From Kiloniellaceae bacterium (GTDB lineage Bacteria; Pseudomonadota; Alphaproteobacteria; Kiloniellales; J153), in the NCBI GenBank assembly GCA_021776135.1, contig JAJFGL010000041.1:1-64000 (forward strand): 64,000 bases of DNA. The letters are read 5' to 3'. Positions 46,936 through 64,000 of the stretch are shown piece by piece; positions within the stretch are counted from its first letter, which is position 1, and each line of letters opens with the position of its first letter. Made by a program: the position numbers and the translations under genes. Under the pieces are notes generated by a model. It saw nothing but the letters and a program-made list of their open reading frames with translations, was not told the DNA's origin and ran no database searches.

Positions 46936-48491
46936 CGCGCGGCGGATACCGGGGCCAAGCCGGGGCGCAGCAAGCTGCAACCGGTCATGTCCTGGGGTTG
47001 CGGCATTTTCATAAGCGCCAGGATTGTCGGCGCGATATCGGCCAGGCGGCCAGGGGCCAGGAATTGCACCTCCGCCGGCGCGCCAAGCAGGATCGCCGGC
47101 ACCCGGTTCAGGGTGTGGGCGGTGTGGGCCTGGCCGGTCTTGGCGTCGGACATGAGTTCCGCGTTGCCGTGATCGGCGGTTATCAGAAGCGCGCCGCCGG
47201 AGGCGGTCAGCGCCGCCGCGACCCGGCCCAGGCAGGCATCCACGGTTTCGGCCGCCGCCACGGCCGCCGCCAGATCGCCGGTGTGGCCGACCATGTCGCC
47301 ATTAGCGTAGTTGACCACGATCAGGTCGAAGCGCTCGCTCCCGATGGCCTCGACCAGCCTGTCGGTTAGCTCCGGCGCCGACATTTCCGGCTGCAGATCG
47401 TAGGTCGCGACTTTTGGCGAGGGTATCAGGATTCGTTCCTCGCCCTTGAATTCCGCCTCGCGCCCGCCGTTCAGGAAAAAGGTGACGTGGGCGTATTTTT
47501 CGGTCTCGGCGATGCGAAGCTGGGCGAGGCCGGCCGCGGCCACGACCTCGCCCAGGGTCTGGCGCAGCTCGACCGGCTCGAAGATCGTCTCCAGAAAGAG
47601 ATTGAGATCGCTGGCGTATTCGACCAAGCCGGCGGCGGCCGCGAACTTGACCCGGCGCGGCCGGGCGAAGCCGCTGAAACCGGGGTCGAGCAAGGCGGCC
47701 AGAATTTCGCGGGCCCGGTCGGCGCGGAAGTTGGCACACAACAAGCCGTCGCCATCCGCCATGCCGATAAATCCCGCAACGATGCTGGGCAAGACGAATT
47801 CGTCGCTTGTGTCCGCTTGGTAGCTTTGCTCGATCGCCGCGATCGCATCGGGCGCGGCTTCGCCCTTGCCCTCGGCCAGGGCCTCGTAGGCGCGCGAAAC
47901 CCGGTCCCAGCGTTTATCGCGGTCCATGGCGTAGTAGCGCCCGATAACGGTGGCTATAGGCGCGTTCGGGGCCTCGCGTTGAAATTGCTCCAGGAACCCA
48001 AGTGCGCTTCTTGGCGGGGTGTCGCGGCCGTCGAGGATGGCGTGAACCGCGACCGCGACCCCGGCCCCATGGAGAATCTCCGCCAAGCAGGCGATGTGGC
48101 GCTGATGGGCGTGCACGCCGCCGGGCGACAACAGGCCGAGGATATGGGCGGTGCCGCCGCTGACTTTCAGCTTGGCGATGAAGGATCGCAGGGCCGGGCG
48201 CGTGGCCAGGGCCCCTGCGGCGATAGCCGCGTCGATGCGCGGCAGATCCTGCATCACGATCCGGCCCGCGCCCAGGTTCATGTGTCCGACTTCGGAGTTC
48301 CCCATTTGCCCCGCCGGCAAACCGACCTCTTGCTCCGAGGCATGGAGCAAGGTGTGCGGGCATGCCGCCGCAAGGCGGTCCAGCACCGGGGTTTCGGCCT
48401 GGAGAATGGCGTTGTCTCCCCGCTCCTCCCGATGGCCCCAACCATCCAGGATGCACAAGACGACGGGACGGGGGCGGACAGCTTCGGTCAT
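46932..48491 (-). CDS. gpmI: 2,3-bisphosphoglycerate-independent phosphoglycerate mutase
   Basis: 519 residues of the alkaline-phosphatase superfamily. Metal ligand region ILDGWGHREERGDNAI, the phosphorylated serine S66 in GNSEVGHMNLGAG, and the C-terminal metal site TADHGNAE. Interconverts 3- and 2-phosphoglycerate in glycolysis. gpmI-envC-ctpA order is conserved in alphaproteobacteria. Confidence 0.97.
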   Translation of the reverse strand: MTEAVRPRPVVLCILDGWGHREERGDNAILQAETPVLDRLAAACPHTLLHASEQEVGLPAGQMGNSEVGHMNLGAGRIVMQDLPRIDAAIAAGALATRPALRSFIAKLKVSGGTAHILGLLSPGGVHAHQRHIACLAEILHGAGVAVAVHAILDGRDTPPRSALGFLEQFQREAPNAPIATVIGRYYAMDRDKRWDRVSRAYEALAEGKGEAAPDAIAAIEQSYQADTSDEFVLPSIVAGFIGMADGDGLLCANFRADRAREILAALLDPGFSGFARPRRVKFAAAAGLVEYASDLNLFLETIFEPVELRQTLGEVVAAAGLAQLRIAETEKYAHVTFFLNGGREAEFKGEERILIPSPKVATYDLQPEMSAPELTDRLVEAIGSERFDLIVVNYANGDMVGHTGDLAAAVAAAETVDACLGRVAAALTASGGALLITADHGNAELMSDAKTGQAHTAHTLNRVPAILLGAPAEVQFLAPGRLADIAPTILALMKMPQPQDMTGCSLLRPGLAPVSAAR

Positions 48492-48556
48492 GGCGACCTA
48501 TATAAGCGTTTCGGGGTGGATGCCCCAGGCTTTTCCAAGTCAGGGGCTTTTCCAGG

Positions 48557-49039
48557 TCAGGCGCGATGATAGGGGTGGCCGGTTAAGATGGTCTGGGCCC
48601 GGTAGACTTGTTCCGCCAGCATGACCCGGACCAGCATGTGGGGCCAGGTCATGGTTCCCAGGGACAAGGTCAAGGCGGCGGCGGCGCATACGGTCTCGTC
48701 CAAGCCCTCGGCGCCGCCGATGGCGAAGGCCAGGCCGCCGGCGCCTTCGTCCCGCCAGCGGCTCAGCAGAGCGGCGAAGTCCTCGCTGGACAGGCTCTTA
48801 CCGCGCATATCCAGGGCGATCAGGCGGGCGCCGGGCGGGATCGCGGCCAGCAAGAGTTCACCCTCCCGCCGTTTTAATTCGGCCGGCGCCAGTGGCCGGC
48901 GCTCCTCGACTTCCTTAAGGGTCAAGGGCCCCAGCGGTCCCCGGTTTCCTTGGGTGTTCAGGCGCGCCGCGAAATCCCGGTAAAGCTCGCGCGCGGGACC
49001 GGCCTTGGCCCGCCCCACCGCCGCCAGAGTTATCCGCAT
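48557..49039 (-). CDS. rlmH: 23S rRNA pseudouridine(1915) N3-methyltransferase RlmH
   Basis: 160 residues, SPOUT fold. The motifs LIALDMRGKSLSSEDFA and FAIGGAEGLDETV, and the terminal LVRVMLAEQVYRAQTILTGHPYHRA, are the family signature with the SAM knot and C-terminal Tyr/His. Modifies helix 69 of 23S rRNA. It follows rsfS, as in most bacteria. Confidence 0.96.
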   Translation of the reverse strand: MRITLAAVGRAKAGPARELYRDFAARLNTQGNRGPLGPLTLKEVEERRPLAPAELKRREGELLLAAIPPGARLIALDMRGKSLSSEDFAALLSRWRDEGAGGLAFAIGGAEGLDETVCAAAALTLSLGTMTWPHMLVRVMLAEQVYRAQTILTGHPYHRA

Positions 49040-49045
49040 GGGATT

Positions 49046-49462
49046 TTACCCGTCCTGCTTATCTTTCGCTGCGCCGTTGGGAGGTATCTCGACCCCCCAC
49101 ATCTTTTCCAAGCCGTAAAACTCGCGCACTTCGGGCCGGAACAGATGGACGACGACATCGCCGCCGTCGATCAAAATCCAGTCGCCGCGCGGCGCGCCCT
49201 CCATGGCGACATCCCGCGCGCCGCCGGCTTTCAGACGCTCGCGCAGATGCTCGGCCATGGCGACGACCTGACGGCTGGAACGCCCGGTGGCGACAACCAT
49301 GTAATCGGCGATTGTCGATTTTCCTGAAAGTGGGATGGCGACCACGTCTTCGGCCTTGTCGCCATCGAGTGAGGTCTGGACCAACTCAAGAAGTTTCTTG
49401 CTGTGGGCGAGCGGGTCGGGTTTGGCGGCCTTGGAGGCCCTGGCTTGGTTAGATATGGCTAT
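49046..49462 (-). CDS. rsfS: Ribosomal silencing factor RsfS
   Basis: RsfS binds ribosomal protein L14 and blocks subunit joining. The domain is clear: KKLLELVQTSLDGDKAEDVVAIPLSGKSTIADYMVVATGRSSRQV, then DWILIDGGDVVVHLF and YGLEKMWG. The only conventional in-frame start is a TTG at 49384, which would remove the conserved KKLLE start of the domain. The open frame continues upstream to ATA codons at 49462 and 49456, with AGGGAGA just before the first. I therefore give the range up to 49462 (138 residues); the true start is unresolved. Confidence 0.85.
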   Translation of the reverse strand: MAISNQARASKAAKPDPLAHSKKLLELVQTSLDGDKAEDVVAIPLSGKSTIADYMVVATGRSSRQVVAMAEHLRERLKAGGARDVAMEGAPRGDWILIDGGDVVVHLFRPEVREFYGLEKMWGVEIPPNGAAKDKQDG

Positions 49463-49497
49463 CTGTCTCCCTAGTTATCCAATGAACGTGCTATCGG

Positions 49498-50127
49498 TCA
49501 CTCTCGCCGCTTGGCCCGGATCTTGGTCGAGGACTGTGTCTCCAGTCCCTGGTGAATAAAGACCCAGGCCGGCGGCGTCCTCCGCGCCAGCTCGCCGGCC
49601 TCGGATTCAGGCAGGCGGCAGTGCGCGAAGCGCCGGGCCGCTTTTCCGGCCAAAGCTCCTAAATGATAGGAAGGCCGGTCGAATACCGCAACCGGCAGGA
49701 TAGAAAACAATTCCTGCCAGGATTTCCAGGCCGGAATCTGGATCAAATTGTCGGCGCCCATGAGCCATACGAAATGAACTCGGGGAAAGCGCTTGACCAG
49801 GGCGGCCAGGGTATCGGCCGTATAGACGGTTCCTAGAACGGTTTCGATGGCCCCGGCCAATATATTGGGATCCAAGGCCAAGCTGCGTGCTTGGTCCAAA
49901 CGTTTATCCAAGGCCTCGGTTTCGTGACTTTCCTTGAGCGGGTTCTGGGGCGAGACCAGCCACCACACCCGGTCCAGGCGCAGGCGCCGCAGGGCCTCGC
50001 GGCTGATGGCCACATGGGCCTCGTGGGCCGGATTGAAGGAACCGCCCAAAAGCCCGATGCGCTGTCCGGGCGATGGCAGACGCCCGCCCAAGGCGGCGGC
50101 CAGACGGGCCCGGGTGGGCAGCGTCAA
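49498..50127 (-). CDS. nadD: Nicotinate-nucleotide adenylyltransferase
   Basis: About 209 residues from a TTG at 50127; a CTG at 50157 that overlaps the proA stop (CTGA) would give 219. The nucleotidyltransferase motif GLLGGSFNPAHEAHVAIS holds the H-x-x-H pair, and the late STKIRAKRRE is the ISST-x-I-R type motif. Makes deamido-NAD from nicotinate mononucleotide. Longer readings run into proA and are spurious. Confidence 0.92.
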   Translation of the reverse strand: MTLPTRARLAAALGGRLPSPGQRIGLLGGSFNPAHEAHVAISREALRRLRLDRVWWLVSPQNPLKESHETEALDKRLDQARSLALDPNILAGAIETVLGTVYTADTLAALVKRFPRVHFVWLMGADNLIQIPAWKSWQELFSILPVAVFDRPSYHLGALAGKAARRFAHCRLPESEAGELARRTPPAWVFIHQGLETQSSTKIRAKRRE

Positions 50128-50153
50128 TCCGGGGCGCGGTTTTAAGATGCGGT

Positions 50154-51452
50154 TCAGGGCCGGACCCGGCCGTCGCTGCGCACGATGTATTTGTAGCTGG
50201 TTAACTGATCCGCGCCGACCGGGCCCCGGGCGTGCAGGCGCCCGGTCGAGATGCCGATCTCGGCGCCCATGCCGAACTCGGCGCCGTCGGCGAATTGGGT
50301 CGAGGTATTGTGCATGACGATGGCGGCGTCGACACGGGTCAAAAATTCCTCGGCAGCCTGGGCGTCCTCGGTCACGATCGCCTCGGTGTGTTGGGAGCCG
50401 TGATGGGCGATATGTTCCAGCGCGCCATCCAGATCCTCCACCGTCTTGACCGCCAGAATCGCGTCCAGGTATTCGGTATCCCAATCCTCCGGCTTGGCCG
50501 TGACCGCGCGCGGTTCCAGCTTGCGGACAGTCTCGTCGCCGCGAATTTCGCAGCCGGCCTCTATCAGATCGCTCAGGATCGGTGGCAGCAGACTGGATGC
50601 CACAGCCCGGTCAACCAGCAGGGTTTCCATGGCGCCGCAGATTCCGGGGCGCCGCATCTTGGCGTTAAGCGCGATCTCGCGCGCCTTTCGCGGGTCGGCT
50701 CCGGCGTGAATGTAGGTGTGGCACATGCCGTCCAGGTGGGCGATCACCGGAATACGGCTTTCGTTTTGTACCCGCTCAATGAGGCCGCGACCGCCGCGCG
50801 GGACAATGATGTCAACGGTATCGTTCATGGTCAGAAGCATGCCCACGGCGGCCCGGTCAGTTGTTGGCAGGCGCTGAATCGCGGCCTCGGGCAGGCTGGC
50901 GGCACGCAGACCCGTATGAAGACAAGTCAAAATGACCCCGGAAGTTTGGAAGCTTTCCGACCCACCCCGCAGAATCGCGGCATTGCCGGATTTCAGGCAC
51001 AAGCCCCCGGCATCGGCGGTCACATTCGGACGGCTTTCGTAGATCACCCCGATGACCCCCAGAGGCACCGCGACCCGGGCGATCTTCAGGCCGCTCGGGC
51101 GGTCCCATTCTGCCAGGGTGCGGCCGATGGGATCCGGGAAATCGGCGATTGCCTCCAAGCCGCCGGCCATGGCGTCGATGCGGGCGGGTGTCAAGGCCAA
51201 GCGGTCCAACATGGCGGCGCTCAGGCCCTTGGCGCGCGCCGCTTCCATGTCCTTGGCGTTCGCCGCCAGGATCTCGGCCGAGGCCCGCCGAATCGATTCC
51301 GCCGCCGCGCGCAGGGCCTTGGCCTTGGTCTCCGCCGGGGTCAGGGCCAACACAGCCGCGGCGCGCCGGGCGGCCGCGCCGATCGCCGCCATCTCGGCGC
51401 GCAGATCGCCGCTTGTGCTGTCGCTCCGAAGAACCGCCGTGTCAGGGTTCAT
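50154..51452 (-). CDS. proA: Glutamate-5-semialdehyde dehydrogenase (gamma-glutamyl phosphate reductase)
   Basis: 432 residues, aldehyde dehydrogenase superfamily. Catalytic cysteine in [13 protein letters not shown], family motifs [29 protein letters not shown] and [33 protein letters not shown]. Second step of proline synthesis after ProB. It follows proB after about 50 bp. Confidence 0.98.
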
Positions 51453-51501
51453 GGGTGTCTCTCTCGCTGCCTAGTGGATAGAATCCAACAGATGGTACCC
51501 A

Positions 51502-53717
<2,216 letters not shown>

Positions 53718-53734
53718 CTAGGTCCAAACGAAAA

Positions 53735-53761
53735 CGAGGGGAACGGTGCCCGTTCCCCTCG
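53735..53761 (-). terminator. Strong hairpin between rpmA and obgE
   Basis: A 12-bp perfect stem (CGAGGGGAACGG with CCGTTCCCCTCG) closes a three-base loop. On the minus strand it is followed by TTTTCGTTT. It looks like an intrinsic terminator or attenuator that would let rplU-rpmA be expressed at ribosomal-protein levels and obgE-proB at lower levels. Confidence 0.75.
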
Positions 53762-53822
53762 AAATCGAAACCTTATGGGAGCAAGGCGCCTCTAGTTTCG
53801 GGCGCGGCTCGCTTCCCGAATC

Positions 53823-54098
53823 TTATTCGGCCGGCGGCGCCGGCTCGGCCGGGAGCACCGACACATAGGTCCGCCCGTGTTTCTTCTGGGCAAAGCTGAC
53901 CTCGCCCTCGACCAGGGAGAACAGGGTGTGGTCCGTGCCCATGCCGACATTGGCGCCGGGATGGAACTTGGTTCCGCGCTGGCGCACCAGAATGTTGCCG
54001 GGCACCGTATGCTGACCGCCGAACAACTTGACGCCCAAACGCCGGCCCGCTGAATCGCGGCCGTTGCGCGAGGAACCGCCGGCTTTTTTATGGGCCAT
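53823..54098 (-). CDS. rpmA: 50S ribosomal protein L27
   Basis: 91 residues. [29 protein letters not shown] is the canonical start; the extreme N-terminus reaches the peptidyl transferase centre. The C-terminal [10 protein letters not shown] is a short variable tail. Six bases after rplU. Confidence 0.98.
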
Positions 54099-54104
54099 GC
54101 TGGG

Positions 54105-54686
54105 TTACTCCTTGTCGCTCTTGGCCGCTTTCTTAGCGGCGGTCTTCTTGTGCGCGGCCTTCTTGGCGGGGGTTTTCTTGGCCGCCGCCTTTTTGGGCGC
54201 CGCCTTCTTCACCGGGGCCTTCTTGGCCGCTGTTTTCTTGGCCGCCGTCTTCTTTGTGGCAGCCTTCTTCGGAGCCGCTGGTTTCGCGGGCGCGGCCTTC
54301 TTTTTAGCCGTTGGCTTCTGGGTCGAGGTCTTGGCCGTGGCCGGCTTCGCCTTGGTCGGCGCCGGTTGCTTGCCGCCGGTCAAAATCTCGGTCACCCGTA
54401 AGACCGTCAGGTCCTGGCGATGGCCGTTACGCTTGCGGTGATTCTTGCGCCGCTGTTTCTTGAACACGATGATCTTGGGACCACGGGCCTGCTCGACCAC
54501 CTCGGCCGCCACGCAGGCGCCTTCGACCAGCGGCGCGCCAACCTGCAGGCCGGCCTCGTTCTCCAACATCAGGACCGAGTTGAGCGCCAGAGTCTCGCCA
54601 GGCTCGCCGGCCAGCTTCTCCACGCGCAGAATATCGTTGGGGGCGACCCGGTATTGCTTGCCGCCGGTTTTGATGACCGCGAACAT
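54105..54686 (-). CDS. rplU: 50S ribosomal protein L21 with histone-like Lys/Ala-rich C-terminal extension
   Basis: 193 residues. Residues 1-105 are a normal L21 ([41 protein letters not shown]). Residues 106-193 are an 88-residue tail made almost only of K, A, P and T, in irregular AAKKT/KKAAPKK repeats like those of histone H1 and bacterial histone-like tails, ending in SDKE. Most L21 proteins stop near residue 103. The tail is in frame, uses ordinary codons and ends 6 bp before rpmA, so it is not a frameshift artefact. It may bind rRNA or DNA; function unknown. Confidence 0.95.
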
Positions 54687-54759
54687 GACTTTGACTTATC
54701 CAATGTTGGACGCAATAAATACCCCGCCGGGCCGCAAGGGACCGGCGTGCAAGGCCGGG

Positions 54760-54787
54760 ACTATAGCGCCGCCGCCCCGGCTGTCAA
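54760..54787 (-). promoter_or_regulatory. Promoter of rplU-rpmA
   Basis: On the minus strand TTGACA (54787-54782) is followed after 16 bases by TATAGT (54765-54760). This is a near-consensus sigma-70 promoter in otherwise GC-rich DNA, giving a leader of about 65-70 nt before the rplU ATG at 54686. Confidence 0.8.
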
Positions 54788-54905
54788 CGCCTTTCAGGGG
54801 CTCGAGGGGCGCCGGAATGGCGGGTTACCGCCGCTTGCGGGGATTTCCGCCATCCTATAGGGTCCGCCCCGGTTCGACCCAGCCCAGGTGCTGGAACCGC
54901 CCACG

Positions 54906-54995
54906 GAGGGGTGCCGGAGTGGTCGAACGGGGCGGTCTCGAAAACCGTTGTACTCGCGAGAGTACCGTGGGTTCGAATCCCACCCCCTCCGCCAG
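54906..54995 (+). tRNA. tRNA-Ser(CGA)
   Basis: 90-nt type II tRNA with encoded CCA. Acceptor stem GGAGGGG pairs with CCCCTCC (54985-54991), discriminator G and CCA at 54993-54995. T arm GTGGG-TTCGAAT-CCCAC. Anticodon stem-loop GCGGT-CTCGAAA-ACCGT gives anticodon CGA, reading UCG. A long variable arm (GTACTCGCGAGAGTAC) is as expected for serine. A TATAGG at 54856-54861 could be its -10 element. Confidence 0.97.
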
Positions 54996-55025
54996 CAAGT
55001 CATTGATATCTCACAAAAAACCGAA

Positions 55026-55046
55026 TGGGATTCGAACCCACGGTAC
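55026..55046 (-). repeat. Inverted 21-bp copy of the tRNA-Ser T-arm region
   Basis: This segment is the exact reverse complement of tRNA positions 54963-54983 (end of variable arm plus T stem and loop), 42 bp away. It does not extend into a foldable second tRNA. It lies between the tRNA and the recombinase remnant and may be an old attachment-site scar in inverted orientation. The rest of 55047-55280 shows nothing I can support. Confidence 0.85.
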
Positions 55047-55280
55047 GGTCCGCGGCAGTCCGCGGGCCTTCGCACCGGGCCGCCGCACGAGCGGGACCGG
55101 GAGAACGCGGTCTCTCGGCCGTGTCCTCGGCTTCGCGCACGTTTTCTCTCCTGGCCATTTTCGCTGTCCCGTTAGCGCGCGCTCTAGGCACCGTGATGGG
55201 GCGCCCGGTAGGCGTTGAACCGACGGATTTTCGCCACCGCGAAGGCGGCGATACCCAAGGTGTCGATGTTGCCGCGGAAG

Positions 55281-56640
55281 TCAGCCCCGGGAGAACCCCA
55301 AGACCTTTCGCTGTTCATGCCAGCCGATCGGGATGCCCTTTCTGAACCGCTCAAGCTCCAGGTCTGCCGGTTGGTAGCCGTCGAGTATGGCCTCGACAAT
55401 GTCGGGCGCCAGGAAAGCCAAGCGGAGGATGCGCCCGACATAACGCGGGGTGACACCCTCGGCCTTGGCGATAGTTTGGATCGAGGGGGCTTGCCCGGAG
55501 AACAATTTCTCCTTCCAGGCCTGGGCACGGGTCAGCGCCTTGATCAGCGCAGCGTTGATGCGCGGCCGCCTCCCCCTTGTATTTCCTGGTGGGATCACGA
55601 GCCGCATCTCGCCGGAGCAGAGCTTTAGCCGCGCGGGAACGTGGAGGGTCAAGGTGTCGCCCCCAACCTGCGGCCTGGGGGCCCCCTCCATGTCGATCGA
55701 TGACTCATCACCCAGCAAGGCATGCCTGAGCCCGTTGCGGCGGAGGACGATCCGGATCTCTCGTTCGCTCACAGTGACGCGGGCCACAATCCGGAGAACG
55801 AAGGCACGTTGCCCGGAGCCGCTCATTCGCGGCCATCGCTCGGCCTGATTCCTGGCCGCGACCATGAGACGCTCCTGGTCGCGGGGCGGGAGGGAGTCCC
55901 CAAGCTCGTCGATCACCAGGCCCGAGTCTTTGAGCCAGGCGGCGATCCGCGCGGCAACCAACTCTTCGATTTCTCGGGCCGGGATCCGGATGATCGACCC
56001 GGCATCGCCGTCGCGATGTTGGAGCAGAGCCTGGCCCACGTAGTAGCGGTAACGCACCCCGTTCTTGACCGCGTGGGACGGGCTCAGGCGGTTGCCGCGC
56101 TCGTCATGAAGAATCCCGGCGAGCAGGCTCGGCTCCCTGGATCCATTGCCCGCGCCGGTCGAGGGCATTACCGGCAAGCTTCGCCTGTACGGCGTCCCAG
56201 GTCTCGGCATCGATAATCGCCGCGTGCTGGCCCTCGTAGACTTCACCCTTGTGTGCGATCCGGCCGGCATAGAGCGGGTTGCCGAGGAGCTTGTAAATGT
56301 AGCCGCGGCTCAGGGGCCGGCCGCCGCGCATGCGTCCGTTTTCCGCCTTGCGGATCTTGGTCGCAAGTCTCAGCCAGTCAACCTCCTCTTTCACCCGGCG
56401 CACGTTACCGTGCTCCGGGTAGAGATGGAATACGGTCCGCACGGTCTCGGCCTCGGCTTCGTTGATCACCAGGCTGCGGTCCTTGGCCTCATAGCCGAGC
56501 GGCACGAAGCCCCCCATCCACATACCCTTCTTTTTGGAGGCGGCGATCTTGTCGCGGATTCGTTCGCCGGTGACCTCGCGCTCGAACTGGGCGAAGGAGA
56601 GCAGCATGTTGCGGGTGAGCGGCATTGACACGTTAAGTAG
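55281..56640 (-). pseudogene. Large serine recombinase, frameshifted and N-terminally truncated
   Basis: Two overlapping frames together make the middle and end of a large serine site-specific recombinase. The first (to about 56120) carries MLLSFAQFEREVTGERIRDKIAASKKKG, the recombinase domain GYIYKLLGNPLYAGRI and DAETWDAVQAKL; the second carries EPSLLAGILHDERGNRL through to LERFRKGIPIGWHEQRK. They are joined by a one-base shift near 56120-56150. The catalytic resolvase domain with the nucleophilic serine is absent: sequence upstream of about 56640 is an IS6-type fragment in the opposite orientation. Non-functional as it stands. Confidence 0.85.
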
Positions 56641-56676
56641 GTGGCCGCTGCGGTCAGGTGCCGTTACCGTCACTGC

Positions 56677-57067
56677 ATGGCACCGATATCCTTCAAGCGA
56701 CATCGCTTTCCGCCCGTGATTATCCAGTACGCGGTTTGGCTCTACGCTCGGTTCACCCTGTCGTTTCGCGATGTCGAGGATCTGCTGGCCGAGCGTGGCA
56801 TCGACGTTTCGAATGAGGCGGTCCGGCGCTGGTTCCTGAAATTCGGGCGGCTGATCGCTGGCAATCTTAAGCGTAGTCGCCCGCGAGCGAGCACTCGCTG
56901 GCATCTCGATGAGATGGTCATCAAAATCCGTGGCCGGAAACATTGGTTGTGGCGAGCGGTCGACGACGAAGGCGAGGTGCTCGACTTTCTGGTTCAGCCA
57001 CGGCGCTGTGCGCGGTCGGCACAGAGGCTCCTGCGAAAACTGTTGAAGAAGCAGGGCTTTGCGCCGA
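56677..57067 (+). mobile_element. IS6-family transposase, 3'-truncated fragment
   Basis: About 130 residues from the ATG at 56677 match the start of IS6 transposases: FKRHRFPPVIIQYAVWLYARFTLSFRDVEDLLAERGIDVSNEAVRRW, then RWHLDEMVIKIRGRKHWLWRAVDDEGEVLDFLV with the first catalytic D, ending KLLKKQGFAPK. The segment that should follow, with the second D and the E, is missing, and unrelated sequence takes over. No terminal inverted repeats or target duplications were found. It replaces the 5' end of the recombinase gene. 57068-57238 holds no gene I can support. Confidence 0.85.
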
Positions 57068-57238
57068 AGAGCGGGATCGATCTCACGCTCTCCACGCTCG
57101 GTCTCCCCAAATCGTTCAAGCATAGTGGTAGAGCAGGATGAAAGCCCCGCCCAGGAGGAGATCGGTCTTGATGGCTCTCCTTTCGGTTTCGTGATCCTGC
57201 GTAGGATGAGCAAAGAGGAAGAGGTGTGGCGTTGCCGC

Positions 57239-57898
57239 TTAGCGTGCCGGCTCGTTTTCGATCACAACCGTGCGTGTCGTGCCGCTGGGGCCCGGAAAGT
57301 CGGCGAAGAGGGCCCGAATCATGAGCGGAACGACGCGGCCGATTTCGGCTTCAGGTCCGACGCTTACGACCCGCCCTTCGAAGACTTTTTTCGTTTGGCC
57401 TTGTCGCCAGGCCCCTGCTTCCAGGAATTCCAGCATCAAGGTACGGCGATATATCGTGCGTGTTTGCTCGGTATAACCCAGAGGTACATGGCCGCCGCTT
57501 TCGTAGAGTCGGGCGGAAAAATCTTCGCCCTCTGCGGTCCGTCCCCGTATGACACTGTACCGGTCAGGGTAGTAACCATAGACGGGCACGGGTCTGCTTT
57601 CCGAGGTGCCGGCGCCGATACCGTAGTCCAGCCGGATGACATATTCGCTTTGTCCTAAGCCTTTGGCCTGGAGAAATCCGCGAGTCTGCAGTTCGTTGAC
57701 CACGCGGGTGGCGTAGGACGCGAACTCCAGGCTGGTGCTTTTGGCCTCATCGGCGGGGAATAAGACGAAGCTCCGTGGCGCCGGCGAGGAGGTCAAGGTA
57801 TGAAAACCCGTGACCTCCGCGCTGAAGGGTAGGCTTGCACATGCGGCTATCCCCAAAAGAACGGGCACTAAGAGGAAGACGGCGAGATATCTCATCAT
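57239..57898 (-). CDS. DUF4136-like lipoprotein
   Basis: 219 residues from the ATG at 57898. Signal peptide with lipobox LGIAACA, so the mature protein begins at Cys and is lipid-anchored. The body (FVLFPADEAKSTSLEFASYATRVVNELQTRGFLQ...VIRLDYGIG) resembles the DUF4136 fold. It is 46 bp downstream of the cytochrome reading frame and likely in the same transcript. Role unknown; possibly an outer-membrane partner of the cytochromes. Confidence 0.75.
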   Translation of the reverse strand: MMRYLAVFLLVPVLLGIAACASLPFSAEVTGFHTLTSSPAPRSFVLFPADEAKSTSLEFASYATRVVNELQTRGFLQAKGLGQSEYVIRLDYGIGAGTSESRPVPVYGYYPDRYSVIRGRTAEGEDFSARLYESGGHVPLGYTEQTRTIYRRTLMLEFLEAGAWRQGQTKKVFEGRVVSVGPEAEIGRVVPLMIRALFADFPGPSGTTRTVVIENEPAR

Positions 57899-57944
57899 AA
57901 TCCTTATATAGGGCGTTGATGGGCCCTTGGCGACCCGCCCGGAA

Positions 57945-58907
57945 TCACGGTCGTTGCCCAATAAATGCACGGTGCATATAGACGATTATGGCATCAATCT
58001 GCTCCGTTTCCAGGACCTGGCGGAAGGCCGGCATGGAGGTGTTGGGCAGTCCATCGAGTATCACTTGCCGCAGGCGGTCGTCGCTTAGGCGTGCCCTGAC
58101 AGGAAGGTCTGTAAAGGAAGGCGGACTGGGATCGAGGAAGGTGCCAATCCAATTGCGGCCCGTGCCATCCGCTGCGTGACATAGGGCGCAGGCTTGTTGA
58201 TACACGTTCTGGCCCGCGCGCTGCTGCGGTGTCAAATTAGCTAGGCCGGGGATTCGGTCGTGCAGGTTCTCTTCCTCATGATCATAGCCGCGTCCGTATT
58301 CCTCATGTTCGCCGTGGTCCTCTTGCCAGTTGCTTGGCTTCGGCAATAGCGAACCATCTGATTTTACGGTGCTTTCAGGCCGCTGCCCTTGGGCGGCGCC
58401 TTGGACCGTTCCCCGGATCGTGCCCTCATGGCAAACGCTGCAGGTGCGTCTGAACAGATCGAGGCCGGAGCGTTGCGTGGCGCTTAGCTCGATCTCTCGC
58501 GCGTCGACGGCCAAAGTCCCGCTGACGAAGGGAAAGGCGGCGCCGTTGCGGCGCTCGTGATCCGGCCAACCGTTTGCGGCGGTGTGATAGTGTGTGTTGT
58601 GGGCGCCGCAACGTACCAGGGCCTCGAGCACGAAGGCCGCGACGGCCTCGATCTCGGTATCGTCCAGGATCTCCGAGAAGGACTGCATAGCGCTCTGCGC
58701 GCGACCGTGCCGCACCGCCCGTTCGATCCGATCGGCGGTCAGGTCAGAACTCGTGGTAAAATCACGTGGTACCGGATATAGGTATTTCGAGGCTACTGTT
58801 TGCGCGTCGCCGTTGTACCCATGGCAGAAATAACAGCGGACGTTGTAGATGGCACGCCCACGCTCCAGAACCGTATTAGCCGTATCGTCACAACTCAGTT
58901 TTTTTTT
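57945..58907 (-). CDS. C-terminal triheme cytochrome c segment without its own start; probable -1 frameshift product of the upstream gene
   Basis: About 320 codons. Three haem motifs: CYFCH near 58830, CSVCH and CALCH, each in a class-I-like cytochrome domain. Between the last in-frame stop (inside the upstream gene) and the first haem there is no ATG, GTG or TTG; the first usable start (GTG at 58715) lies after that haem. There is no signal peptide, although c-type haem attachment needs export. The frame joins the upstream cytochrome by a -1 shift at the A9 run 58899-58907. A His/Glu-rich stretch (HGEHEEYGRGYDHEEENLHD) could bind metal. Confidence 0.75.
   Translation of the reverse strand, partial: KKKLSCDDTANTVLERGRAIYNVRCYFCHGYNGDAQTVASKYLYPVPRDFTTSSDLTADRIERAVRHGRAQSAMQSFSEILDDTEIEAVAAFVLEALVRCGAHNTHYHTAANGWPDHERRNGAAFPFVSGTLAVDAREIELSATQRSGLDLFRRTCSVCHEGTIRGTVQGAAQGQRPESTVKSDGSLLPKPSNWQEDHGEHEEYGRGYDHEEENLHDRIPGLANLTPQQRAGQNVYQQACALCHAADGTGRNWIGTFLDPSPPSFTDLPVRARLSDDRLRQVILDGLPNTSMPAFRQVLETEQIDAIIVYMHRAFIGQRP
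58895..58907 (-). promoter_or_regulatory. Candidate programmed -1 frameshift site (A9 followed by UGA)
   Basis: On the minus strand nine A (58907-58899) are followed by C and the in-frame TGA (58897-58895). Zero-frame phasing gives A-AAA-AAC-TGA. Re-reading one base puts the ribosome into the downstream haem-rich frame. I could not identify a clear downstream stimulatory hairpin by eye. Confidence 0.55.
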
Positions 58908-60031
58908 ACGGGCATGTGATCGGTATGGGATGCTGGTGCGGCCTGGGGCGCATGATCATGATCTGGTCCAGGCACTGCCGACAACTTCGCATTGGTAAAA
59001 GCCTGATACACATACTCAGCGACGTCGGCGATTTGCTGTAGAGTGAGCACCTTGGACCAGGCCGGCATATCGGTGCCGCGCACGCCCTTGGCGATCCCCT
59101 CGAAGAGGTTCGGCCGATCGTATTCGGCGCGGGCGCGCGGCGCGGTGAAATCCTTCGGCTTGCGGCGCATGAAATAGGCACGCGGGCCGCTCCCATCGCC
59201 TTTCATGCCATGACATTGGCTGCAATTGGCCTCATAGAATATCCGGCCGGCAGTCGTGTCGCCTATCAAGCCGATTGGGAAGGGGGCTTCCGGGTCCTTA
59301 ACGTGGCCACCATGATCGTGCCCGCCAGTTGTCGTGCTTTGCTTTGCCGCGACCTTGCCGTGTTCGGGGCTCTCAGGTTCGCCATCTTGTGGGGAGCGCC
59401 CGAAAGTCATGCGGATGTAGTCGATCACGGCCGCGAGCTCTTCTCGGTCATACTTCGTTGCGAACGGCATCATCGCGGTGCCGGTGACGCCGTAGGTCAC
59501 CGCGTGGATCATACGCTGACGCGATATTTCTTGCGCTTTCTTGGAGGTAAAATCGAAGGGCGGCGGATTCAGGCTGTTCTGGGCCCAAGACGCGGCATTG
59601 CCACGTTCGCCATGGCAGACGCTGCAGGTCCGGGCATAAATCCTGCGCCCAACACCGGCATCGGCTACCGGCGCGGGAAGCATCAGGGCTTCGCGTATAT
59701 AGTCGATAACTCGCGGCAACATATTCTTATCCAGAACGCGGTCCAACTGAGCAACTACCTCCGGCTCATGGTCTTCGCGAACCGCAGATATCATGGCATC
59801 CCGGGTCAAGCGGGCAACTGCTTCCGGGGAAGTAAAATCGACACTCGCACTCTCACCGGTACCCTCGGAACCATGACAGGCGGCGCAGTTGTGGACGTAG
59901 GCATCGCGCGTTGCGAGCATCTGTGCACCCGTGGCGAGCCTATCGTCGTGATCGTGTGCCCCCACGTCGGCGACATTAAAGAAGACGCACGCAAGGATAG
60001 TAGTCAGCCCAATCAGAAAACTTCGTCGCAT
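58895..60031 (-). CDS. Triheme cytochrome c, exported
   Basis: 378 residues from the ATG at 60031. Sec signal peptide (cleavage about DVGA-HD), then three cytochrome c domains with haem motifs CAACH (C49), CSVCH (C136) and CSQCH (C270), each followed by the methionine-type end (GTAMMP, GTDMP). The linker 215-250 is His/Gly-rich. It stops as GTA-AAA-AAA-AAC-TGA, where A-AAA-AAC is a canonical -1 slippery heptamer, and the next frame continues with three more haems. Either this stop is bypassed by frameshifting or the A-run is one base short. Longer N-terminal readings lack a signal peptide. Confidence 0.9.
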   Translation of the reverse strand: MRRSFLIGLTTILACVFFNVADVGAHDHDDRLATGAQMLATRDAYVHNCAACHGSEGTGESASVDFTSPEAVARLTRDAMISAVREDHEPEVVAQLDRVLDKNMLPRVIDYIREALMLPAPVADAGVGRRIYARTCSVCHGERGNAASWAQNSLNPPPFDFTSKKAQEISRQRMIHAVTYGVTGTAMMPFATKYDREELAAVIDYIRMTFGRSPQDGEPESPEHGKVAAKQSTTTGGHDHGGHVKDPEAPFPIGLIGDTTAGRIFYEANCSQCHGMKGDGSGPRAYFMRRKPKDFTAPRARAEYDRPNLFEGIAKGVRGTDMPAWSKVLTLQQIADVAEYVYQAFTNAKLSAVPGPDHDHAPQAAPASHTDHMPVKKN

Positions 60032-60192
60032 AAGTGCATTCGCTTTTTTTCTGGATCGGCTCGCCCGTTTTGGCGATCGCATCCAACTGTTATGTCCGGT
60101 CGAGCCGGGGGTGAAGTTATAGCTTTGATGAAAGAGGTTGCGAGTGTGACTTGTCAAGCCATAGACCTGACGCTCAAGGCGGCCGGCCCGGA

Positions 60193-61047
60193 TCACAAGA
60201 TGTGGCATTCAAAGCATAGGCCTTTTTCGGTGCGCGGCTTTCTGGCGTGGTCGTGGCTGTAGGGTACATGACAGGATACGCATCCGACGCGCCCATTGGG
60301 CAGGAGCACTTCGTCCGCCAGAGCGCTTCGGGGCCGGTAGTCGCCGCTTCGCGCCGCTTTGTCGTACTCGGCGCCAACGGGATGGTCCATGCCGCGAGGG
60401 GCCGGACTGACCGGAGAATCACTGAATCCCAACACGGCGACTTGTCGGCTGGATGGCATGCGGTCGTCATGGCAAATTAGACAACGCTGGGAATAAGGGT
60501 CCAGGCTGGCCGATGACCGGGACCAAACGTCGAAATGCGCCGACTTCAACAAGGATTCGCCCTTGTCGGGCATGGAATCGAAGAAGCTGGCGTCATGGCA
60601 GGACGTGCAGAGGTCCTCGCCGACCGACGCCGCGCGCATCAACCTCGGATTATCTCCATGCAAGGCGTGACAGGTACTACAGGTAAAACGTCCATCGCGG
60701 TCTAAAGGAAAGGCTGCGGAAAGCTGCCGCTCGGGACGAAATCCGCTAGGGTGGCTGGCATCTATGGCACCTCCATGGCACCCGCTGCAAAGCTGCTCCT
60801 GATCGGCGATCAAGCCCGCCGAGATCGGCTGTGCCGCGTCAGGGCTAGCCGTATGACACTCCTGGCAGTCGAGAACGGCATGGCTGCCGGTCGCCACCAC
60901 GACCGCCGGTTCCATACTATTCAACCCGGGCACCTTGAAGACGATGAGAGCAAGCAAGAGGCCGATTGAGGCATAGGCCGCGGCCACCGCAGCCAGGCGG
61001 AGGCGGTCGACAGCTTTATGCAGGGGGGCAAGCCCGGACTGCGGCAT
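60193..61047 (-). CDS. Membrane-anchored heptaheme cytochrome c
   Basis: 284 residues. One N-terminal transmembrane anchor (about 18-38), then seven CxxCH motifs with cysteines at about 61, 87, 123, 147, 189, 256 and 278 and several spare histidines placed as distal ligands (for example near 56, 99, 130, 171 and 266). The spacing is that of doubled-CxxCH multihaem proteins. Likely a periplasm-facing electron relay on the inner membrane that passes electrons to the soluble hexaheme protein next to it. No exact family recognised. Confidence 0.88.
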   Translation of the reverse strand: MPQSGLAPLHKAVDRLRLAAVAAAYASIGLLLALIVFKVPGLNSMEPAVVVATGSHAVLDCQECHTASPDAAQPISAGLIADQEQLCSGCHGGAIDASHPSGFRPERQLSAAFPLDRDGRFTCSTCHALHGDNPRLMRAASVGEDLCTSCHDASFFDSMPDKGESLLKSAHFDVWSRSSASLDPYSQRCLICHDDRMPSSRQVAVLGFSDSPVSPAPRGMDHPVGAEYDKAARSGDYRPRSALADEVLLPNGRVGCVSCHVPYSHDHARKPRTEKGLCFECHIL

Positions 61048-61162
61048 AGGGTATGCCCGTCGGTTGGGAAAACTAGTGCCTATCTAGCCCAAACGATTGA
61101 ACATTCCGTGAACTTCGGGACCCAAACTCGCCCTTGGGAGGCTGAAAACCGGCTCTCGCTGG

Positions 61163-61909
61163 CTAGAGACCGATTGCCATGCGGTGGCTCGGCATCTCCT
61201 CAAACCCGGCAAGTTGCTGAAGTCTCGGTACGTTCTTCAGCAGCACTAACTTGCTGTCGAGGATCTTGATTAGGCCGTCTGTGCTGAGGCGGCTGAAAGT
61301 CCGGCTGATCGTCTCGCTTGTAACGCCCAGATGGTCGGCTATGTCTTTGCGGGGCATCAGCGTATGCACCAAATTCGGATCCTCGTCATCCATCTTCCAG
61401 CGCTGGCTTAGCAACAGAAGGAAGGCCGCCAATCTCTCCGGCACCAACTTCCGGCCGAGTAATATCGCGTGGTCGTATTGCGCTTCGATTTCATCCATTG
61501 CCGTCACAAGCAGAGCGAAACATAGCGAGGGATGGATCCGTATAAAATCCGCGAATGGTTCTTTCTCGAACGCGCAAACCTCGAGATCGGTGATTGTCTC
61601 TGCCGTACAGTGGGCACCGGCGCTGCGTTTTATGCTGCCCAAAAGATCGCCGGTACCTAGGAACCCGGTGACTTGCTGCTTGCCGTTGCGTGCGCTGCGG
61701 TACAGTTTGACCATGCCCCGCGTGATGACGAAGACCTTTTTGATGTCATCATCCTGCTCGAAGATAATCTGGCTACGATCGAATCGGTATCTCTTGGATA
61801 ACGCCTGAAATTGCGCCCGTTCGATAGAGTTTATATGGGAGCACAAAGATATATGACGAACGACACAATGCCGGCAGTCCGGCCGTGCATTTTTTGTAAC
61901 GCAGAGCAT
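61163..61909 (-). CDS. FNR-type oxygen-sensing transcriptional regulator (Crp/Fnr family)
   Basis: 248 residues. N-terminal cysteines C12, C15 and C23 (C-x2-C-x7-C) plus C112 in LEVCAFE make the full set of [4Fe-4S] ligands in the FnrN-type spacing. cNMP-like sensor domain at about 40-150. The helix-turn-helix RKDIADHLGVTSETISRTFSRL contains the E-x2-S-R motif that reads TTGAT half-sites. It lies upstream of the multihaem genes on the same strand, 115 bp away, and probably activates them under low oxygen. Confidence 0.9.
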   Translation of the reverse strand: MLCVTKNARPDCRHCVVRHISLCSHINSIERAQFQALSKRYRFDRSQIIFEQDDDIKKVFVITRGMVKLYRSARNGKQQVTGFLGTGDLLGSIKRSAGAHCTAETITDLEVCAFEKEPFADFIRIHPSLCFALLVTAMDEIEAQYDHAILLGRKLVPERLAAFLLLLSQRWKMDDEDPNLVHTLMPRKDIADHLGVTSETISRTFSRLSTDGLIKILDSKLVLLKNVPRLQQLAGFEEMPSHRMAIGL

Positions 61910-62072
61910 TGCTGGCCTAGCCTGTTCGCATCGCTCAAAAGGGAGCGAAATGTGGATCCATGTGCGCAGCCGTTATCCGGCTGTGGATTTTCCCATGCTT
62001 GACCCGAGCAGCCAGCATGGCATTCTGTACCATAAGTGCCTGAATAATGGGGACGGAGCAACGAATTTGCGA

Positions 62073-62812: not shown

Positions 62813-62826
62813 TTGATTTGGATCAT
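62813..62826. promoter_or_regulatory. FNR-box-like site
   Basis: TTGAT-TTGG-ATCAT matches the FNR/FixK consensus TTGAT-N4-ATCAA at nine of ten defined positions. It lies 194 bp before the NHL lipoprotein start and about 900 bp from the FNR-type gene that could bind it. Confidence 0.6.
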
Positions 62827-62909
62827 TGAGGTTCCCAGTCGTAAGGTGATATTTGACTGGCTAAGCCATATGCACGTGGATCGCGAGTCCATACCGGCAG
62901 AAACACAAT

Positions 62910-62969
62910 GCGGTTTGACTAAGACCATGCCTTATCCAAGCGGTTTGACTAAGACCATGCCTTATCCAA
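62910..62969. repeat. Perfect 30-bp tandem duplication
   Basis: The unit starting GCGGTTTGACTAAGACC occupies 62910-62939 and again 62940-62969 without change. It lies between the FNR-box-like site and the NHL lipoprotein start. The rest of 62792-63019 shows no gene of its own. The duplication is 30 bp, so it would keep any reading frame crossing it. Confidence 0.95.
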
Positions 62970-63019
62970 CAGCTTCGGCGCCCGCCCGCCTTGCGGGGTG
63001 CAATTTTTCTCAGCGGATC

Positions 63020-64000
63020 ATGCGACTTCCAGCGCAATGGCTTCGATTCCCGTGGGCCGCCGCGTTTCTGCTGACGGTCGCGGCCTGCGCCGCGCCGGAG
63101 CCGCCGAAAGCGGTAGAGATCGTATATCCGCCCGCACCTGAAGAACCGCGCTACTACTATGATCGGACCCTTTACGGGAGCACGAACGTCAAACCGGAAA
63201 CCTCGACCGACCGGCTGCGGCGTTTCGCGACCGGGCAGTCGGAGCGGGGCCGGGGGTTCGCGAAGCCGTTCGACGTGCGGGCCGACAATGGGCGCATATT
63301 TATCAGCGACACCGTGAACCGGCGTGTGGCGGTTCTCGATTTTCCGCAGCAACGCTATTACGAGATAGGGACACAGGGGGTCGGTCGCCTGGCCAAGCCG
63401 CTCGGCCTGACCACCGACGCTCAGGGCCATCTCTATGTGGTTGACGGCACGGCGAAGCGGATCCTGGTTTACGATCTGGAAGGCACCTACCTGAAAAGCA
63501 TCGGGACTGGAGAAATTCTGTCGCGCCCGTCGGGAATTGCCGTGAACCCAGATGGGTCCAGGATCTACGTCGTCGATACCGGGGGCGTGTCCAGCAAGGA
63601 TCATACGATCCACGTCTTCGGCCCGGACGGCAAGCACCTGTTTAATATAGGGACCCGCGGAAAGGAAGATGGGAATCTTAACCTACCGCTCATGGCGGCC
63701 ATGGCCCCGGATGGCAACTTGTACGTCTCCGACAGCGGAAACTTCCGGGTTCAGGTCTTCGATCCGGATGGCAACTTCGTCAAGACCATCGGCAGTATCG
63801 GCCGTCGGCCCGGGCAGTTCTCACATCCCAAGGGGATCGCAGTCGATTCCGACGGCAGGATCTTCATCGTCGATAGCGGATTCGCGAATTTCCAGATCTT
63901 CGATAACCAGGGCCAGATCCTTTTATTCGTAGGTGAAAGAAACGAACGCGGCGGGCCCGGTCAATATATTCTGCCGTCGGGAATTTCGGTCGACGTGGAC
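63020..64000 (+). CDS. NHL-repeat six-bladed beta-propeller lipoprotein (3' end outside window)
   Basis: 327 codons present. The ATG at 63020 gives a signal peptide with lipobox LTVAACA, so the protein is lipid-anchored. It is followed by NHL/6-bladed propeller repeats: FAKPFDVRADNGRIFISDTVNRRVAVLDF, LAKPLGLTTDAQGHLYVVDG, RPSGIAVNPDGSRIYVVDT, and FSHPKGIAVDSDGRIFIVDSG. Such propellers are scaffolds and often accompany multihaem cytochromes in electron-conduit gene sets. An in-frame ATG at 62927 inside the tandem repeat is possible but would bury the signal peptide. Confidence 0.85.
   Translation, partial: MRLPAQWLRFPWAAAFLLTVAACAAPEPPKAVEIVYPPAPEEPRYYYDRTLYGSTNVKPETSTDRLRRFATGQSERGRGFAKPFDVRADNGRIFISDTVNRRVAVLDFPQQRYYEIGTQGVGRLAKPLGLTTDAQGHLYVVDGTAKRILVYDLEGTYLKSIGTGEILSRPSGIAVNPDGSRIYVVDTGGVSSKDHTIHVFGPDGKHLFNIGTRGKEDGNLNLPLMAAMAPDGNLYVSDSGNFRVQVFDPDGNFVKTIGSIGRRPGQFSHPKGIAVDSDGRIFIVDSGFANFQIFDNQGQILLFVGERNERGGPGQYILPSGISVDVD

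Follow-up and report, generated by a model that had tools for sequence, protein, structure and literature searches.

Organization of the Putative Hexaheme Cytochrome Locus

The window, which is the whole 64,000-nucleotide stretch of DNA analyzed here and belongs to a draft genome in 70 contigs, carries on its minus strand a gene for a putative hexaheme cytochrome c that is laid out in two reading frames meeting at a run of nine adenines (A9). The features of the gene and its surroundings are the following.

57945..58907, minus strand: −1 frame, second triheme half (CYFCH, CSVCH, CALCH)
58895..58897, minus strand: TGA stop of the 0 frame, one base past A9
58895..60031, minus strand: upstream frame, 378 aa, signal peptide, CAACH, CSVCH and CSQCH, stop included
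58899..58907, minus strand: A9 run, candidate slippage site, in the context GT-A9-CT
60193..61047, minus strand: multihaem cytochrome with seven CxxCH motifs, upstream of the hexaheme gene
61163..61909, minus strand: Crp/Fnr-type regulator
62813..64000, plus strand: NHL β-propeller gene, running past the window end

The three domains of the upstream frame are of the class I cytochrome c type and form a triheme half, the 3′ end of which reads GTA AAA AAA AAC TGA. The −1 frame stops at 57945–57947 and is open as far up as 58955; within the window it has no ATG, GTG, or TTG ahead of CYFCH and no hydrophobic segment or signal peptide. Cytochrome c domains (PF13442/PF00034) are found in the N-half and C-half alike, and the fused product of both frames would comprise 695 residues with six CxxCH motifs and one N-terminal signal peptide, so combining haem-binding motifs in cytochrome c domains with a predicted export signal, as is characteristic of c-type multihaem cytochromes. 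Signal peptides were called by applying a cutoff to hydropathy rather than with a trained predictor, the two resulting classes lying well apart (≤1.13 versus ≥1.86). The preliminary description of this DNA had the layout right, including the three haems, signal peptide, and 3′ end of the upstream frame, a −1 frame open from about 60 nt upstream with three more CxxCH motifs and neither a start codon before the first of them nor a signal peptide, and a joint product of about 690 residues. On the other side of the gene, open reading frames resembling two overlapping parts of a serine recombinase (55281–57213, minus strand) and an IS6-like transposase fragment (56641–57141, plus strand) were noted by eye.

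Conservation among Close Relatives

An identical two-frame layout was found in three of eight relatives from the family of the window, two belonging to its genus and one to another genus, with 56–78% amino acid identity to the window proteins. Across the window and these three relatives GT-A9-CT is invariant despite a variable surrounding linker, and the codon that ends the frame after AAC is TGA in three of the four and TAG in the other. The preliminary description had called for A9 to be compared with A10 in relatives, with A10 throughout pointing to a simple fusion gene; this was not seen, as the three near relatives all have GT-A9-CT in the same place. The A-run is also present in Azospirillum TSO22-1 and in one complete two-contig genome.

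The dN/dS ratio is 0.11–0.21 for the C-half and 0.12–0.25 for the N-half (0.20–0.25 against the same-genus relatives), and purifying selection acts equally on both halves. The C-half values are those of a downstream frame that is translated and selected, as is required of programmed slippage.

Junction Types across the Wider Family

Scanning genome contigs first yielded 80 loci, of which 76 were classifiable. Twenty-eight have an A9 or A10 run and a C-half with neither its own start nor a signal peptide, and the remainder comprise 45 two-gene loci, in which the C-half is encoded by a second gene with a separate start and a hydrophobic, signal-peptide-like segment, two fused in frame, and one split without a run. 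Later searches, covering another class and two families, brought the total to 123 distinct junctions (55 A-run, 61 two-gene, five with G_GGA_AAG only, and two fused), with L111 assigned by eye to the A-run type and L141 to the two-gene type, and L171 and L179 (T10, opposite strand) left out of the classification. Sampling evenly across the window's class and phylum yielded no new A-run loci, whereas a draw centred on another class yielded many; a plasmid search found nothing. Most of the A-run genomes are MAGs. Three loci showed peculiarities of their own: in the gammaproteobacterial L037 and L039 the six-haem protein is a single in-frame open reading frame with no A-run, and in L063 the genes overlap, the start and signal-peptide-like stretch of the second gene being inside an upstream frame that stays open for another 1.1 kb. 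The start of the L072 contig (positions 1–20) reads as an Illumina adapter left in the public record.

The 55 distinct A-run junctions, from Alpha- and Gammaproteobacteria, consist of 49 with A9, five with A10, and one with A8, and none is in frame, where chance would give about one-third. They thus share an A/T homopolymer of ∼9 or more with a length conserved among homologs, and it is by the conservation of nine adenines among homologs that functional slippage in transcription has been recognized in published work (PMC1088944). Within the 351 kb covered by the first 28 A-run loci there are 28 A/T runs of at least nine, every one of which sits at the junction, and the genome of the window has ∼9 runs of A9 or longer in 3.96 Mb. 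The Lys codon AAG is commoner than AAA in most of the genes concerned, and the probability of A at all wobble positions has a log10 of about −35, an indicative figure only, since related loci were counted as if independent. As judged from sequence, what has been conserved is a homopolymer nine long and without interruption, not a heptamer.

The overlap between the two frames is at most 30 nt in 28 of 53 A-run loci, with a minimum of 13 nt and the run inside it, and the 0-frame stop lies no more than 12 nt past the run in 48 of the 53. Where the frames share as little as 13 nt, a shift has to fall at the run. No linker run of A7 or longer occurs in any two-gene locus, and none of the A-run loci has an internal C-half start, meaning an ATG, GTG, or TTG accompanied by a hydrophobic segment; the A-run and a second signal peptide are mutually exclusive. 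Relatives with two genes, each with its own signal peptide, had been named beforehand as evidence against a frameshift. Such relatives do exist, but only in a separate sister branch, and the constant absence of the A-run wherever two signal peptides are present supports the frameshift reading. In a tree of the family the A-run spans Alpha- and Gammaproteobacteria, with three changes in all, and the two-gene form, without an A-run, makes up one branch of modest support (65); without a fixed root, gain and loss of the A-run look alike in this tree.

Replacement of the A-run in Genus g544

Five distinct junctions of genus g544 have no A-run and carry CCGGGAAAG in the correct register, two further junctions hold both A9 and G_GGA_AAG, and one holds A9 alone. 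The sequence CCGGGAAAG is invariant in eight of the nine aligned g544 rows (L109, L170, L172, L190, L195, L196, L112/L187, and L185, where two rows represent one junction) within an otherwise variable linker, and GGAG is located ∼14 nt upstream of G_GGA_AAG in most of them. G_GGA_AAG is among the best −1 heptamers in Escherichia coli (PMC4066793), and this subset of g544 has an efficient −1 ribosomal heptamer in register. The three states, A9 alone, both signals, and G_GGA_AAG alone, show what reads as a stepwise replacement. Since the A-run was lost and G_GGA_AAG is carried in the right frame, the frameshifting itself appears to be what is conserved, and its site replaceable.

Proposed Mechanism of Frameshifting at A9

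The reading that we favor, with a probability of roughly 0.7, is that two exported cytochromes c are made from one gene through RNA polymerase slippage at A9. Standard reading would produce the triheme protein, ending at the stop just past A9. On the nine-base A:T hybrid RNA polymerase would slip and add one A, converting A9 to A10 in the mRNA, on which ribosomes would continue and append the second triheme half to give a hexaheme protein of ∼695 residues, exported via the single N-terminal signal peptide. Related bacteria would serve the same need through a pair of triheme proteins, each exported on its own, and in g544 the A-run would have given way to a ribosomal −1 slippery heptamer. The out-of-frame state is probably kept by selection in both classes, with both forms or their ratio being needed. 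The gene layout, its conservation, the selection on both halves, the incompatibility of the A-run with a second signal peptide, and the neighborhood are shown directly by DNA sequence; from these we infer that slippage occurs, that polymerase and not the ribosome is its agent at A9, in what ratio the products are made, and what they do.

Several features of the A-run bear on the choice of agent. A9 occurs in all three codon phases and is followed by G, C, or T, and A_AAA_AAG, the best ribosomal variant, is rare among A-run junctions. The shift is −1 in all A-run loci save L058, where the C-half requires +1 after an A10 run; this is the only such case and comes from one MAG. Two shift directions among orthologs would point to transcriptional realignment (PMC3711429). 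Shine-Dalgarno-like motifs at the A-runs are not clearly enriched (24 versus 15% in the background), and no conserved stem-loop or downstream structure was found at them (mean fold z of −0.01, n = 29). Taken together, the length of nine, the three phases, the single +1 locus, and the lack of Shine-Dalgarno or structural signals favor polymerase slippage for A9.

Production of the fusion by −1 ribosomal frameshifting at the A-run is the strongest alternative and appears unlikely, although all loci but one need the −1 shift that ribosomal slippage would give, and every A9 run contains an in-register heptamer (A_AAA_AAA or A_AAA_AAC/G), as any A9 must. The five g544 genomes with G_GGA_AAG, a purely ribosomal signal with its upstream GGAG, and the two sister junctions that have both signals also speak for it. 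Set against these are the lack of Shine-Dalgarno or structure enrichment at the A-runs, such stimulators being common but not universal, and the non-cognate re-pairing that A_AAA_AAC needs, the AAC-to-AAA shift being disfavored by bacterial ribosomes (PMC4066793). Moreover, a heptamer would have no need of nine adenines and would tolerate A_AAA_AAG, but almost every run is an uninterrupted A9 or A10. The preliminary description had taken A-AAA-AAC to be the active slippery heptamer, and this part of it is not supported: the heptamer is a poor one for bacterial ribosomes, most relatives have the run in other phases followed by G, the run is nine long where a heptamer needs seven, and one locus needs the opposite shift. 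Its broader proposal, a conserved programmed frameshift that would add an exported hexaheme form to the default triheme product, is supported.

It is very improbable that the gene is a phase-variable contingency locus in which replication slippage toggles the C-half. A homopolymer within a gene for an exported protein, and the occurrence of A8, A9, and A10 among species, would suit such a locus; however, with about one-third of junctions expected in frame, none of the 55 is and no on-states were found, the length is nine in 49 of the 55, and g544 retained the shift while changing its site.

Homopolymers are a classic site of error and the window comes from a draft, but the possibility that the gene is in truth a simple fusion, obscured by an assembly or sequencing error (one missing A, as the preliminary description allowed) or by decay into a pseudogene, was rejected for the family on the grounds of conservation and dN/dS and has almost no probability left, because an out-of-frame run is seen again and again, at 55 distinct junctions and in many independent assemblies that include an isolate and the complete two-contig genome, the A10 loci are likewise out of frame, and the C-half is under the selection given above.

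Comparison with Known Systems

The closest precedent for polymerase slippage at the cytochrome A-run is tssM1 of Citrobacter rodentium, where an A-run precedes an early stop and polymerase slippage restores the frame (PMC4256274). Both the short and full-length forms of tssM1 are needed and their ratio matters, and the same is proposed for the cytochrome. The run in tssM1 is A11, the product is a membrane protein of a secretion system, and the case is a rare, species-level one, whereas the cytochrome A-run is kept by dozens of species in two classes. Thermus thermophilus dnaX (PMC1088944, PMC5009743) is alike in its nine-base run, polymerase slippage, and two products per gene, but there slippage truncates the product, where in the cytochrome it would extend it across a second frame. 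The −1 frameshifting of E. coli dnaX and IS3/IS911 (PMC4066793) shares its heptamer logic with g544, which has G_GGA_AAG and a Shine-Dalgarno-like GGAG; the cytochrome A-run loci differ in having nine uninterrupted adenines and neither Shine-Dalgarno nor structure signals.

The two-gene triheme cytochromes of Betaproteobacteria and others have homologous halves and the same neighbors, but their C-half comes with a separate start and signal-peptide-like segment, and there is no A-run. With OmcE-type filaments (PDB code 7tfs) the likeness lies in the neighboring cytochromes; the hexaheme protein itself is not OmcE-like, and its domains are those of class I/cbb3-type cytochrome c. No description of slippage or frameshifting in a bacterial c-type cytochrome was found in the open literature, and the GeneTack main text contains no cytochrome cluster.

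Genomic Neighborhood and Proposed Biological Role

Beyond the window, OmcE-like cytochromes, an isomerase of the PPIC/SurA type, and a second NHL gene are located at 64355–74344 of contig C36. The neighboring OmcE-like cytochromes match 7tfs, which we take to be the Geobacter OmcE filament, along their length (E values of 5e-23 and 1e-20), and a homolog of a filament cytochrome, by which a cluster of the OmcE type is recognized, is thus found close by. Among loci with at least 9 kb, an NHL propeller is nearby in 68 of 68 and an OmcE-like cytochrome in 64 of 68, at median distances from the third haem of ∼1.9 and ∼2.6 kb, respectively, and the A-run, two-gene, and fused types have common neighbors. 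Another multi-cytochrome cluster in the genome of the window (L124, contig C25 of G000, 48000–62000) has weak similarity to individual domains of the hexaheme protein, and no frameshift was seen in it.

To judge by its neighbors, the hexaheme protein most likely works for an extracellular system of cytochrome filaments of the OmcE type, and together with the triheme protein it may feed or anchor the OmcE-like filament. A role in vivo for cytochrome filaments in extracellular electron flow is itself disputed (PMC11077965). We give even odds to the fuller proposal that in many Alpha- and Gammaproteobacteria polymerase slippage at the conserved A9 sets the triheme:hexaheme ratio for an electron-conducting filament of the OmcE type, the shift in g544 having moved to the ribosome.

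If true, and leaving dnaX and mobile elements aside, this would in our assessment be among the most widely conserved cases of programmed slippage in bacterial cellular genes. It would also be the first such case in a multihaem cytochrome, and would connect recoding with the number of haems used in extracellular electron transfer. In annotation pipelines such a gene would end up as two fragments or be dropped as a pseudogene. The range from two genes through slippage to in-frame fusion, together with the replacement of A9 by G_GGA_AAG, would make testable the question of why a short and a long form are kept.
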